A stretch of DNA of 64,000 bases from Leucothrix pacifica (GTDB taxonomy: Bacteria; Pseudomonadota; Gammaproteobacteria; Thiotrichales; Thiotrichaceae): assembly GCF_003172875.1 (NCBI RefSeq), contig NZ_QGKM01000013.1:62001-126000 (forward strand). The letters run 5' to 3'. Below, one piece after another: positions 19,460-22,619 of the stretch. The notes under the pieces are model-generated. The model saw only the letters and a program-made list of their open reading frames with translations, ran no database searches and had not been told where the DNA came from. Both the position numbers and the translations under genes were made by a program. Within the stretch, counting starts at the first letter, position 1. Every line of letters starts with the position of its first letter.

Positions 19460-20620
19460 ATGATAAAACGAGCACTGCTACTACTATTGCTTACCGCCGT
19501 ATGGGCTTTTGGCAGTTGGTGGTACTACACCTGCATGATCAAAGGATTCTGTCGCGCAGATGGTGAGTTCACCAGCGTTGCAGATAAAGCCAAAACAGCC
19601 GCTGTTGGCGCAACTGCTGCAGCCACAGGCGCAATCGTTGCCGGTGCAGACAAAGTTGCTGACGCTGTTCAACCTAAAACCACTGATTTTGTTGATCAGG
19701 ATGGTGATGCAATATCGGATGAAGATGAGCGCGCACTGGGAACAGACCCGGCAAATGTTGATAGTGACGGTGATGGCGTTAATGATAATGAAGAGCTTGG
19801 TGTAGACCTTGTTAACCCAATCGACACTGACAACGATGGCATTATTAACGCACTGGACGAAGATGATGATAACGATGGTATCCCTAGTGCAGTTGAAGCA
19901 GGCTTAACCAGTAATCCACTAAGCGCAGACAGTGACGGCGACGGAGTCAATGATGGCGACGAACTGGGCGCAGACAAGGATAACCCTACCGATAGCGACA
20001 ACGACGGAATCATTGATCTGATTGACAACATTGATGATAACGCGGCTCAGGAAAAAGCTGATACATCTAAAGAGAGCGATGATGATGCCGCAGCAGCCGA
20101 TACTACTGAACAACAAGCTGCCACTGCGGATCAGGAACAAGCGCCTTCAGATGAAAACACTTCAGATGATGATTCTGCTAACGTCGCTCAAGATGCACCA
20201 GCTCCCGCTGCAGATGACGAAGTAACAGTAGATACCGGAGACGCGCAGCAAAATGCGAGTGCAACTTCAGACATCCCTGTTCAAAAGAGCCGTCTCTACT
20301 TCCCGTTCCGTTCAGCTAACCCGGGACTATCAGAGGCCGCAACTGAGTACTTTGAAGGTGTTGTTGCATGGCTTAACCAAAGCCCATCGAACTCCGTAGT
20401 ACTGACAGGCCACACCGATGATGTGGGTAAAGCTGAAACCAACCTTGATCTGGGCCTCAAACGTGCCGTGGAGATCAAGAACCTGATGACCAAGCTTGGC
20501 GCAGACCCTGCACAAGTTGATGTTGCATCAATGGGTGAGACTCAACCAATTGCCTCGAATAAAACTGATGAAGGCCGACGTAAAAACCGTCGTGTTGAGT
20601 TAATTCCGGCTATTAAATAA
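19460..20620 (+). CDS. OmpA-family envelope protein with TSP3-type calcium repeats
   Basis: A 386-residue envelope protein. It begins with a hydrophobic segment, MIKRALLLLLLTAVWAFGSW, then an odd conserved-looking WWYYTCMIKGFC (20-31). A short Ala/Gly-rich amphipathic segment follows (41-70). Residues about 76-192 hold thrombospondin type-3 calcium-binding repeats (DQDGDAISDEDE, DSDGDGVNDNEE, DTDNDGIINALDE, DSDGDGVNDGDE, DSDNDGIIDLID). After a disordered acidic linker (193-272) comes an OmpA-C peptidoglycan-binding domain (about 277-384) with LTGHTDDVG and NRRVEL, which contain the diaminopimelate-binding Asp and Arg. ATG 19460 is chosen because AGGAG lies 12 bases upstream; ATG 19448 directly abuts it. 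No lipobox or clear cleavage site is visible, so it may stay inner-membrane anchored. First gene of a tight trio. Confidence 0.82.
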   Translation: MIKRALLLLLLTAVWAFGSWWYYTCMIKGFCRADGEFTSVADKAKTAAVGATAAATGAIVAGADKVADAVQPKTTDFVDQDGDAISDEDERALGTDPANVDSDGDGVNDNEELGVDLVNPIDTDNDGIINALDEDDDNDGIPSAVEAGLTSNPLSADSDGDGVNDGDELGADKDNPTDSDNDGIIDLIDNIDDNAAQEKADTSKESDDDAAAADTTEQQAATADQEQAPSDENTSDDDSANVAQDAPAPAADDEVTVDTGDAQQNASATSDIPVQKSRLYFPFRSANPGLSEAATEYFEGVVAWLNQSPSNSVVLTGHTDDVGKAETNLDLGLKRAVEIKNLMTKLGADPAQVDVASMGETQPIASNKTDEGRRKNRRVELIPAIK

Positions 20621-20673
20621 TAAGTGAAATACATGGATTGCAGCCGAAAGGCCGCCGTGCTTGAGGATATAAG

Positions 20674-20823
20674 ATGTTTGAACACGCTGTAACAAAGACT
20701 TATGAAATGAAAGATGCCAGCCTGGAGTTGCTGATTATGCTTGCCGGCTCTTTCTTACTGGGCTGCCTGTTTTGCTGGGCACTTGGTTCTCGTAAACGCA
20801 AACGTAATCTGAAGGAGGTATAA
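20674..20823 (+). CDS. 49-residue single-helix membrane protein, paralogous to the N-terminus of the next gene
   Basis: A small open frame: ATG at 20674, TAA at 20821-20823, with GAGG seven bases upstream. The product has one helix (about 17-38) and a strongly basic tail, SRKRKRNLKEV, predicting the C-terminus in the cytoplasm. The helix reads LELLIMLAGSFLLGCLFCW; the next protein starts with LEILLMLLAAFILGWLFCW, so the two are clearly related or selected for the same membrane contact. The last codons (AAGGAGGTATAA) supply the ribosome-binding site for the downstream ATG at 20826, so translation is coupled. The function is not known; a helix-helix partner of the neighbouring proteins is the natural reading. 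Confidence 0.75.
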   Translation: MFEHAVTKTYEMKDASLELLIMLAGSFLLGCLFCWALGSRKRKRNLKEV

Positions 20824-20825
20824 GG

Positions 20826-22571
20826 ATGCCTGCAGACTACTCCTTACTAGATGCAACGCTAGAAATTTTGCTGATGCTGCTTGCCGCCTTTATCTTAGGC
20901 TGGCTATTTTGCTGGTTGATGAAAAAGCTTTTTGGCCGCAAGCAAAAAGACACAATTGAATACACCCACGATGCAAAGTCAGCCGACCTAAATCTACAGG
21001 TTACAGTTCCGGGGCAACGTACTGGCTTATCTGCCAGCAGTCGTGAGCGACTGTATGACCCTGAAGTTGGCATTCCAAGAGCTGATATTGATACGGATAT
21101 TGATGTAGACATCCCTACCATTAATGAGCCTAAGCTCGGTTCGGTTGATATCGACACACCAGATGTTGAGCTTCCTGATGTCAATATTGATACGCCACGC
21201 CCACGAATCGATATTCCTGACCTCAAGACCCCCGACGTCAGCCTGCCTGACCTCGATATAAAAGGAAAAGTAGATGCCGGGCTGGATGTTGGTAAAGGTG
21301 CTATTGGTAAAGGGCTAGGTGCAGCTGCAGCAGGTATCGGTGCTGTCGCTGTTGGTGCAGGCGCGCTAAAGGACAAAGCCGTGGATGCCGTTGGTGATAT
21401 TGAGCTGAAAAAGCCAGACATCGATTTACCAGACGTTTCAATGCCTACCCCTGACATTCATACACCAGACATCGACTTACCTGATGCTCCTGATACTGAC
21501 CTATCTGCAGATCTGGACCTGCCGCCAGATGTGAAGACTCCAAGCATTGATGCCGAGCTACCGGATTTGGACGTCCCCGATCTTACTGCTGATGTAGATC
21601 TTCCGGATATTGATGTACCTGACTTAGGGGCTGACGTAAGCCTGCCAGAGGTCGATCTGGATAGCTTAAAAGCAAAAATTGATCTACCAGATGTCGACTT
21701 ACCTGACTTAGATACTGATCTCAATATTTCAAAGCCATCAATTGATGTTGATATGCCTGACGTTGATTTACCAAGCATTGATACACCTGACCTTTCGGGT
21801 GCGGCTCAGGCTACCGTTGACAGCGGCAAAGGCCTTCTTGGAAAAGGTCTGGGAGCAGCAGCAGCGGGAATCGGAGCGGTGACAGCGGCAGGCGCAAGCC
21901 TCAAAGCCAAAGCTGCCGATAAAACGCAGGCAATGGGTGAAAGTCTGACTAGTCCTGACCTACCGAAGCGAAGAGACAACCCATCGGCTAGTGTTGATAA
22001 CCGCAAAGTCGATGCCTCAGAAACAGGTGATAATCTAACACGTATCTCAGGTATTGATGATTCCACGCAAGCGCTATTGAATAGCAAAGGAATAACCACC
22101 TATGAACAGCTTCGTACAACTGACCGTGGTACTCTCAAACGCTACCTCAGCGAGGCAAGCAACGACAAGCTAAGTGCGGTTGAACCTGCTAGCTGGCCAC
22201 ATCAGGCCAAACTCTGTGCTGACAAAAATTGGGTCAAACTTTCAGAGTATCAGTCATTCCTTGCTGGCAACACCAAAGATCTGACCGAGAAGCGCTCAAG
22301 TGCTTCCTTTGATGACCCCATAAAGGATGACCTGAAGAAGATTGAAGGCATTGGTCCGTTCTTTGAGAGCCTGTTAAACAAGGCTGGCATCACAACTTAC
22401 GAACAGCTGAAAAACAGCAGCAGAGATTCTCTTAAAGAAATTATCGATGCAGCTGGGCCAGACTATCGTATGCATGAACCTGAGACTTGGCCATATCAGG
22501 CCGGACTTGCTGATAGCGGAGACTGGAAGAAACTTCAGGACTATATTCAGTTCATGACTGGTCGCAGTTAG
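20826..22571 (+). CDS. Membrane-anchored repeat protein with two H3TH (FEN1-like, COG3743-type) domains
   Basis: A 581-residue protein of unusual build. Residues 12-32 form one helix followed by KKLFGRKQK, so by the positive-inside rule the long C-terminal part is cytoplasmic. Residues 87-147 and 191-323 are runs of a short acidic repeat, roughly (I/V)D-x-PD with variants DIDLPD, DVDLPD and DLDVPD. Each run is followed by a nearly identical Gly/Ala-rich segment (156-174 and 334-352, sharing GKGLGAAAAGIGAV). Residues 402-481 and 501-579 are two copies of an 80-residue domain: the second begins DDLKKIEGIGPFFESLLNKA, contains GITTYEQL and ends WPYQAGLADSGDW. This matches the helix-hairpin-helix module annotated as a predicted flap-endonuclease-1-like 5' nuclease (COG3743). 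Nuclease activity is doubtful because no acidic catalytic cluster is seen; DNA or protein binding is likelier. Confidence 0.78.
   Translation: MPADYSLLDATLEILLMLLAAFILGWLFCWLMKKLFGRKQKDTIEYTHDAKSADLNLQVTVPGQRTGLSASSRERLYDPEVGIPRADIDTDIDVDIPTINEPKLGSVDIDTPDVELPDVNIDTPRPRIDIPDLKTPDVSLPDLDIKGKVDAGLDVGKGAIGKGLGAAAAGIGAVAVGAGALKDKAVDAVGDIELKKPDIDLPDVSMPTPDIHTPDIDLPDAPDTDLSADLDLPPDVKTPSIDAELPDLDVPDLTADVDLPDIDVPDLGADVSLPEVDLDSLKAKIDLPDVDLPDLDTDLNISKPSIDVDMPDVDLPSIDTPDLSGAAQATVDSGKGLLGKGLGAAAAGIGAVTAAGASLKAKAADKTQAMGESLTSPDLPKRRDNPSASVDNRKVDASETGDNLTRISGIDDSTQALLNSKGITTYEQLRTTDRGTLKRYLSEASNDKLSAVEPASWPHQAKLCADKNWVKLSEYQSFLAGNTKDLTEKRSSASFDDPIKDDLKKIEGIGPFFESLLNKAGITTYEQLKNSSRDSLKEIIDAAGPDYRMHEPETWPYQAGLADSGDWKKLQDYIQFMTGRS
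21291..21881 (+). repeat. Duplicated Gly/Ala segment and acidic LPD-type repeats inside the H3TH protein gene
   Basis: Two DNA segments (21291-21347 and 21825-21881) encode nearly the same 19-residue Gly/Ala stretch; 18 residues or so are shared, differing mainly as GAIGKG versus GLLGKG. Between them lies the longer run of the 6-8 residue acidic repeat. Codon use differs between copies (GGTAAAGGGCTAGGTGC versus GGAAAAGGTCTGGGAGC), so the repeat is old and kept at protein level, not a fresh DNA duplication. Confidence 0.8.
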
Positions 22572-22594
22572 ACCGACGATCTCAACGCTATAAG

Positions 22595-22619
22595 AGCCTC
22601 CCTGACCGGAGGCTTTTTT
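22595..22619 (+). terminator. Intrinsic terminator after the OmpA/H3TH trio
   Basis: GCCTCC-CTGACC-GGAGGC hairpin, extended by one A-T pair, followed by six T residues, 24 bases past the stop of the H3TH protein gene. A standard Rho-independent terminator; it closes the three-gene unit. Confidence 0.9.

Follow-up and report, generated by a model that had tools for sequence, protein, structure and literature searches.

The mycobacterial arfABC (ompATb) operon combines genes for an OmpA-C protein with an N-terminal helix, a one-helix protein of ~50 amino acids (aa) and a one-helix protein with a C-terminal domain; we take Rv0899 to be ArfA and Rv0900 to be ArfB. Channel activity of the ArfA family is disputed. 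An OmpA-C domain also holds the inner-membrane proteins MotB/MotD and TssL (long form) to peptidoglycan, and we know of no H3TH partner of these proteins. H3TH and other helix-hairpin-helix (HhH) domains occur in several settings. For example, a passage of a review states that PhaH, a Caulobacter phasin, binds DNA non-specifically via its HhH domain and tethers granules to DNA (PMC13052382). Excerpts of other papers describe a COG3743 H3TH match in a Halomonas polyhydroxyalkanoate (PHA) synthase (PMC8686332) and DNA binding by ComEA-type HhH domains (PMC4777378). Protein-O of the Dinoroseobacter shibae reaction center–light-harvesting (RC-LH1) complex is given as a protein of unknown function, with a C-terminal domain resembling those of NuoE and others, in part of the text of PMC12079452. 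Here we analyzed a window (the whole stretch examined) of 64,000 nucleotides from Leucothrix pacifica, contig NZ_QGKM01000013.1, in which a three-gene locus at positions 19460–22571 codes for an OmpA-C/TSP3 protein, a small membrane protein and a membrane-anchored H3TH protein.

We found strong evidence that these genes form a conserved module across two phyla. With a probability of about 0.5, the trio would act as a tether or docking site linking the cell wall to the cytoplasm, with a partner that is more likely a protein assembly than naked DNA. The features of the locus are as follows (positions in the window).

19460..20620, + strand: gene 1, OmpA-C/TSP3 protein, 386 aa (open reading frame and Pfam)
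19472..19528, + strand: likely transmembrane helix of gene 1, N-in/C-out as suggested by the peptidoglycan-binding domain (sequence by eye; charge alone ambiguous)
19694..19756, + strand: best of three TSP3_bac repeat stretches of gene 1, residues 79–99 (Pfam)
20306..20590, + strand: OmpA-C peptidoglycan-binding domain of gene 1, residues 283–377 (Pfam; Asp/Asn/Arg present)
20674..20823, + strand: gene 2, 49-aa single-helix protein, paralogue of the gene 3 N-terminus (open reading frame and sequence comparison)
20826..22571, + strand: gene 3, 581-aa membrane-anchored H3TH protein (open reading frame, Pfam, AlphaFold2)
20847..20933, + strand: transmembrane helix of gene 3, residues 8–36, N-out/C-in by charge (AlphaFold2 and charge)
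20940..22025, + strand: acidic repetitive linker of gene 3, probably disordered, residues 39–400, net charge -43 (AlphaFold2 and charge count)
22029..22262, + strand: H3TH domain 1 of gene 3 (domain alignment search and AlphaFold2)
22323..22556, + strand: H3TH domain 2 of gene 3 (Pfam, domain alignment search, AlphaFold2)
about 22592..22617, + strand: hairpin with a U-rich 3' side, likely intrinsic terminator (folding scan, z -4.5)

All three open reading frames are genuine, and the co-directional arrangement proposed in the initial annotation, with two H3TH domains in the last protein, was confirmed by open reading frames, Pfam and AlphaFold2. The terminator that it placed at the end of the group was likewise recovered as a strong U-rich hairpin, although a simple promoter and terminator scan yielded nothing above chance and did not list this hairpin, perhaps because its T run pairs into the stem. 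It had also claimed coupled translation of the last two genes. The ATG of gene 3 sits 2 bases past the stop of gene 2 and a GGAGG is seen by eye within the gene 2 end, and therefore coupling of genes 2 and 3 is plausible.

The linkage of the genes was examined within the family by searching 144 related genomes including the window's own. At E up to 1e-3, gene 3 had matches in 67 genomes, and at E up to 1e-15, gene 1 had matches in 56; repeats and other proteins account for some of these. Loci were fetched at strong H3TH matches (except for L086, which came from the OmpA search), giving 47 family loci that represent loci with the gene and not all genomes; L044 and L045 were dropped as apparently the same contigs as G002 and G005 (here L denotes a fetched locus, G a genome with G000 being the window's own, C a contig and g2–g7 genera). 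By script, 44 of the 47 had the OmpA gene as the immediate upstream, same-strand neighbor of the H3TH gene. A 45th locus (G025) has the pair by match coordinates, our selection of open reading frames having hidden it, and the remaining two end at contig ends, so that the pair was present in 45 of 45 uncut loci. In most loci of the window's genus, the upstream neighbor is a PqiA-like gene and the downstream ones are DUF4124 and proS-like genes (PqiA and DUF4124 named by Pfam, other neighbors by eye), with L047 differing downstream, and the g2, g4 and g6 loci among those listed have different genes on both sides. Thus, the pair is retained while its genomic surroundings vary.

Outside the family, a domain alignment (A1) was searched against 397 genomes of the window's phylum, of which 15 matched at 1e-8, including two from the window's family, and against 148 genomes of the phylum to which the Lewinellaceae record L046 belongs, of which 12 matched at 1e-10. 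Here the OmpA gene was directly upstream, on the same strand, in 14 of 19 membrane-anchored H3TH proteins and in none of the 22 other hosts (Fisher p 3e-7, without correction for relatedness). As a background, 519,750 bases of these stretches contained 4 OmpA matches more than 1.5 kb from any H3TH domain. This set of 19 and 22 comprises all A1 matches of the L046 phylum, four weaker ones of G533, and the matches of other families in the window's phylum except G215. The anchor of the 19 is one N-terminal helix (two adjacent helices in L182), and the many-helix NrfD-like proteins of L151 and L169 were counted as other hosts. OmpA genes on the same strand at a distance of about 4 kb (L151, L152) or 2.8 kb downstream (L176) were scored as non-adjacent. 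Two further non-membrane H3TH fragments of L182 were not included in the 22; counting them would give 0 of 24. In another class of the window's phylum, a first sample had H3TH matches in 3 of 39 genomes, and a later sample of one family had a close match in 57 of 59. Among 40 loci fetched there from 67 matches (best per genome by score; G377 and G456 were skipped as already in the set above), 21 had OmpA directly upstream, and a tiny one-helix open reading frame lay between in 18 of these 21, a count that was 12 before the span was widened. Two of the 40, L245 and L249, were read in a frame that lacks a helix and were retained.

Co-occurrence of the genes, which had been suggested as a check, is thus seen in the sampled genomes at 45/45, 14/19 and 21/40 loci. 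These counts also bear on whether the genes are merely chance neighbors, each with a separate role. The pair is missing in 5 of 19 and 19 of 40 loci, as chance neighbors would allow, and the latter figure limits the claim of conserved linkage; however, the linkage persists where the genomic context changes, occurs in two phyla and is found again in a second copy in the same genome, which makes this explanation highly improbable.

The second copy lies at C81 (L097) and has the same components in a different order. Its H3TH protein, 1123 aa long, combines an N-terminal helix with six H3TH domains, and the other genes there encode a DUF533 protein, an OmpA protein that also has BON and a one-helix protein of 56 aa. 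Tandem arrangements were also observed, with a second H3TH gene behind the first in ten g2 loci (L057, L064, L067, L070, L072, L079, L082, L083, L084 and L052:9370-10830, the latter having an N-terminal helix). Elsewhere in the window's genome, L096:8669-9319 (C122) encodes a small protein that consists of two H3TH domains, shows no evident membrane helix and follows unrelated enzyme genes, and L098:8593-9507 (C56), phasin-like by eye, has one H3TH domain and a linker charge of +24 in the preceding 100 aa.

Gene 2 has one hydrophobic helix and aligns with the N-terminus of gene 3 (first 45 residues) at 46% over 41 aa, being, at the sequence level, a paralogue of its helix. The small gene was present in 28 of 44 family loci (27 by script, that of L074 added by eye). 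In the 16 loci without it, the H3TH protein itself bears an N-terminus of the small-protein type (MF, then V, mostly then T). When 30 family genomes were searched with gene 2, 13 matched both a small open reading frame and the H3TH N-terminus, 1 a small open reading frame alone, 9 the H3TH frame alone and 7 nothing; five g3 and two g7 genomes were among those without any match. In this distribution, the small protein has the appearance of a membrane helix that was split off or duplicated, with each such locus apparently providing the helix once. Gene 2 had no NCBIfam family at E up to 1 and hence no ArfB match. A weak Pfam match to LapA_dom (18.5 bits versus a cut-off of 28) was set aside.

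Gene 1 matched Pfam OmpA with 66.3 bits (cut-off 27.2) over residues 283–377 and TSP3_bac in 3 stretches. Its N-terminus has a signal-anchor-like helix and a W-x-x-G-S-W-W-x-x-C...C motif, which is also found in family orthologues. Peptidoglycan binding by the OmpA-C domain, assumed in the initial annotation, agrees with the conservation of Asp (74/78) and Arg (76/78) in aligned relatives, residues that we take to bind the diaminopimelate of peptidoglycan and that are both present in the window protein. In Pfam at E up to 1, no BON domain was found in gene 1, only OmpA, TSP3 and a sub-threshold PPR_1. Gene 1 was also below the cut-off of the Pal lipoprotein model (TIGR02802, 70.5 versus 125.35 bits) and far below those of MotD (56.3 versus 283) and TssL (62.7 versus 139.8). 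Its best PDB match was 6jfw, another OmpA protein.

For gene 3, Pfam gave HHH_5 (33.4 versus a cut-off of 27, in two stretches) and DUF4332 (24.5 versus 23.2). An AlphaFold2 model built with four sequences contained a helix at residues 8–36, pLDDT mostly of 26–43 over residues 38–400 and two well-predicted helical domains; the full-length model was of poor quality except for the helix and the H3TH domains. The linker (residues 39–400, 362 residues) includes 66 Asp. Foldseek found no match for either model in PDB at E up to 0.001, and VIA-align placed the H3TH model in the HhH/Rad51-N-terminal kind of fold (Z 7–9) among proteins of mixed functions. Among PDB entries, protein-O (8yy9 chain O) was the best relative of the H3TH domain, and NCBIfam PhasinPhaH (NF045508) matched gene 3 in the H3TH part alone, with 30.1 versus 250 bits.

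With regard to topology, the flank following the helix of the H3TH protein was more positive than the preceding flank in 44 of 44 family loci, and therefore an N-out/C-in orientation is predicted. The same charge test gave N-out/C-in for 16 of 27 small proteins, the reverse for 1 and a tie for 10, and in the other-class family it predicted a cytoplasmic C-terminus of the H3TH protein in 20 of 21. The earlier assignment of the H3TH domains to the cytoplasm is consistent with this prediction. The OmpA domain had also been assigned to the periplasm by charge; that ground failed, since charge around the gene 1 helix is ambiguous, but the periplasmic location itself is favored by the presence of the OmpA-C domain. 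Orientation is also what separates this locus from a ComEA-like periplasmic DNA receptor, in which the H3TH domains would lie outside the inner membrane and catch incoming DNA near the wall. The co-occurrence of HhH domains and envelope genes would fit such a receptor, which the charge pattern of both families nevertheless makes scarcely credible.

The initial annotation suggested DNA or a cytoplasmic partner for the H3TH domains, on the pattern of a wall-nucleoid tether. With DNA as the partner, the H3TH domains of the same trans-envelope complex would bind chromosomal DNA non-specifically. In its favor are the HhH fold, with matches to RadA N-terminal and polymerase domains, and the linker of the phasin-like H3TH protein in the window's own genome. 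Yet the H3TH domains of L046–L100 had a mean charge of -2.7 with 8 of 101 positive (distinct domains, nearly all from the family; a few, those of L046, L093, L094 and L096–L100, belong to other families or hosts), and the window linker is at -43. HhH controls named by eye in the window's genome, the sole controls available, gave +3 for the RuvA and UvrC repeats, which we take to be DNA-binding, versus -11 for the NusA repeat, presumably protein-binding. Mean domain charges were -2.8 (n = 90, including L093 and L094) and -2.2 (n = 18) for envelope H3TH proteins, -4.4 (n = 11) for ribosomal, +1.0 (n = 5) for NuoE-type and +3.5 (n = 4) for phasin-type proteins, of which L172 alone passes the Pfam phasin model and the other three were named by eye; OmpA-adjacent domains of the other class were near neutral (-1.1, n = 21). 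Charge is a weak test of DNA versus protein binding. A protein partner is also suggested by the hosts of the same domain, which by Pfam include L27, L21, L17, S2, an S1-domain protein, NuoE-type ferredoxins, NrfD-like proteins and one phasin, in addition to protein-O. Taken together, charge and host context make a protein partner more likely than DNA, and the DNA claim is unsupported as originally stated. The weak match to the PhaH model points the other way, because PhaH is described in the review passage as binding DNA through its HhH domain (PMC13052382), so that a DNA partner is possible, and we regard the wall-nucleoid tether as somewhat doubtful.

Several observations were made on these other hosts. 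The ribosomal ones are L27 (L148, L152, L184), L21 (L156, L158, L160, L181), L17 (L164), S2 (L166, L167) and S1 domains (L154), so that the tails sit on differing ribosomal proteins in differing genomes, mostly of the L046 phylum, as if the tail had moved. In plasmid records, a related tail was found on L21 only (3 Riemerella records). NrfD-like membrane proteins with a C-terminal H3TH domain are encoded at L151:5751-7601 and L169:6453-8180. The two-helix H3TH protein at L182:1023-1967 resembles protein-O and lies upstream of a NuoF-like gene (by eye), as in D. shibae.

From these features we infer a physical complex with a topology read from charge, a partner and a purpose. The trio would form a three-part inner-membrane assembly arranged like arfABC. 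The N-terminal helix of gene 1 would anchor it, with OmpA-C gripping peptidoglycan on a periplasmic TSP3/acidic stalk; gene 2 would provide a second short helix; and gene 3, with its paralogous helix and a long disordered acidic leash, would hold two H3TH domains in the cytoplasm. Such an assembly would serve as a wall-to-cytoplasm tether or docking site, whose partner would more likely be a protein assembly carrying or recognizing H3TH (for example, ribosomes, PHA granules or respiratory complexes) than naked DNA. The initial proposal of a tether from the wall through the membrane is thus the best reading as far as the cytoplasm, while its nucleoid end is not favored.

Some observations weigh against a tether or dock with a protein partner. 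The pair is lacking at 5 of 19 loci with membrane-anchored hosts outside the family and at 19 of 40 other-class loci, and charge leaves the orientation of gene 1 ambiguous. In the window's own genome, 13 H3TH matches included no H3TH-tagged ribosomal protein, leaving aside the one on C121 (E 7e-4), to which no protein name was given. With Z 7–9, the fold resembles RadA N-terminal and polymerase domains and likewise NusA AR2, a mixture that may reflect just a common arrangement. Moreover, PhaH, the closest studied relative with a stated ligand, is reported as DNA-binding (passage of PMC13052382).

If the tether or dock exists, it would be a general peptidoglycan-cytoplasm link found in two phyla, of which we found no description in open-licence PMC full-text papers. 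A further step, which we consider unlikely, is that H3TH serves as a shared cytoplasmic "tag-and-dock" domain, with the OmpA/small-helix/H3TH proteins as a wall-anchored dock and H3TH-tailed ribosomes, PHA granules and respiratory complexes as clients. The cell wall would then position translation, storage and respiration, with client tails on L21, L27, L17, S2, S1-domain, phasin, NuoE-type or NrfD-like proteins in differing lineages. The peptidoglycan-cytoplasm link itself would tie together poorly understood pieces, namely arfABC-like operons, protein-O and the H3TH tails of ribosomal and respiratory proteins. A test for co-evolving dock and tag failed, and this counts against the tether as well: H3TH domains of the same Bacteroidota genome were not mutually alike, ribosomal tails mostly resembling other ribosomal tails and envelope domains mostly other envelope domains, although G570 and G640, among others, depart from this.

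The locus can be set against each of the described systems. Gene 1 shares the OmpA-C domain with MotB/MotD and TssL and differs in scoring far below the cut-offs of their models. PhaH has a related H3TH domain (NF045508, 30.1 bits); it differs in being a granule protein according to the review passage (PMC13052382), and gene 3 shares the H3TH part alone. Protein-O is similar to gene 3 in having an N-terminal membrane part, a flexible linker and a related C-terminal domain, whereas it has two helices, its gene lies between nuoE and nuoF and the relevant part of the paper mentions no OmpA partner (PMC12079452).

The closest likeness is to arfABC. The OmpA protein of a relative, L173, passes the NCBIfam ArfA_OmpATb_N model (89.6 versus 81), and Rv0899 is the top PDB match, over the OmpA part, for the corresponding proteins of L178 and of the window genome's own C81; ArfA_OmpATb_N was not among the NCBIfam matches listed for these two, and Pfam finds BON there (below cut-off in L178). 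The ArfB model was searched in 23 genomes, 21 of which had any match at E up to 10 and all below cut-off; the best or only match fell inside these loci in 6 of the 21 (G000, G006, G243, G748, G711, G760), and below-cut-off matches were also obtained in 10 of 14 control genomes. These matches could be taken to suggest an arfABC-like module acting in transport or as an accessory to a channel, by which a solute or stress would be moved or sensed, with H3TH being regulatory. However, Rv0899 ranks just eighth among the PDB matches of the window OmpA protein, the G000 matches to the ArfB model lie at C81 and none at the window locus, and the channel activity of the family is itself disputed, so we consider this function quite unlikely. 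Although the initial annotation knew of no described system of this build, the layout of the window locus, with an OmpA-C protein, a tiny one-helix protein and a one-helix protein with a C-terminal domain, is that of arfABC. It differs in that the OmpA protein has TSP3 where ArfA has BON, the small protein misses the ArfB_Rv0900 model and H3TH domains are present in the third protein. On the tests performed, the locus is not an arfABC member; the most fitting description is a layout like that of arfABC, but with H3TH domains.

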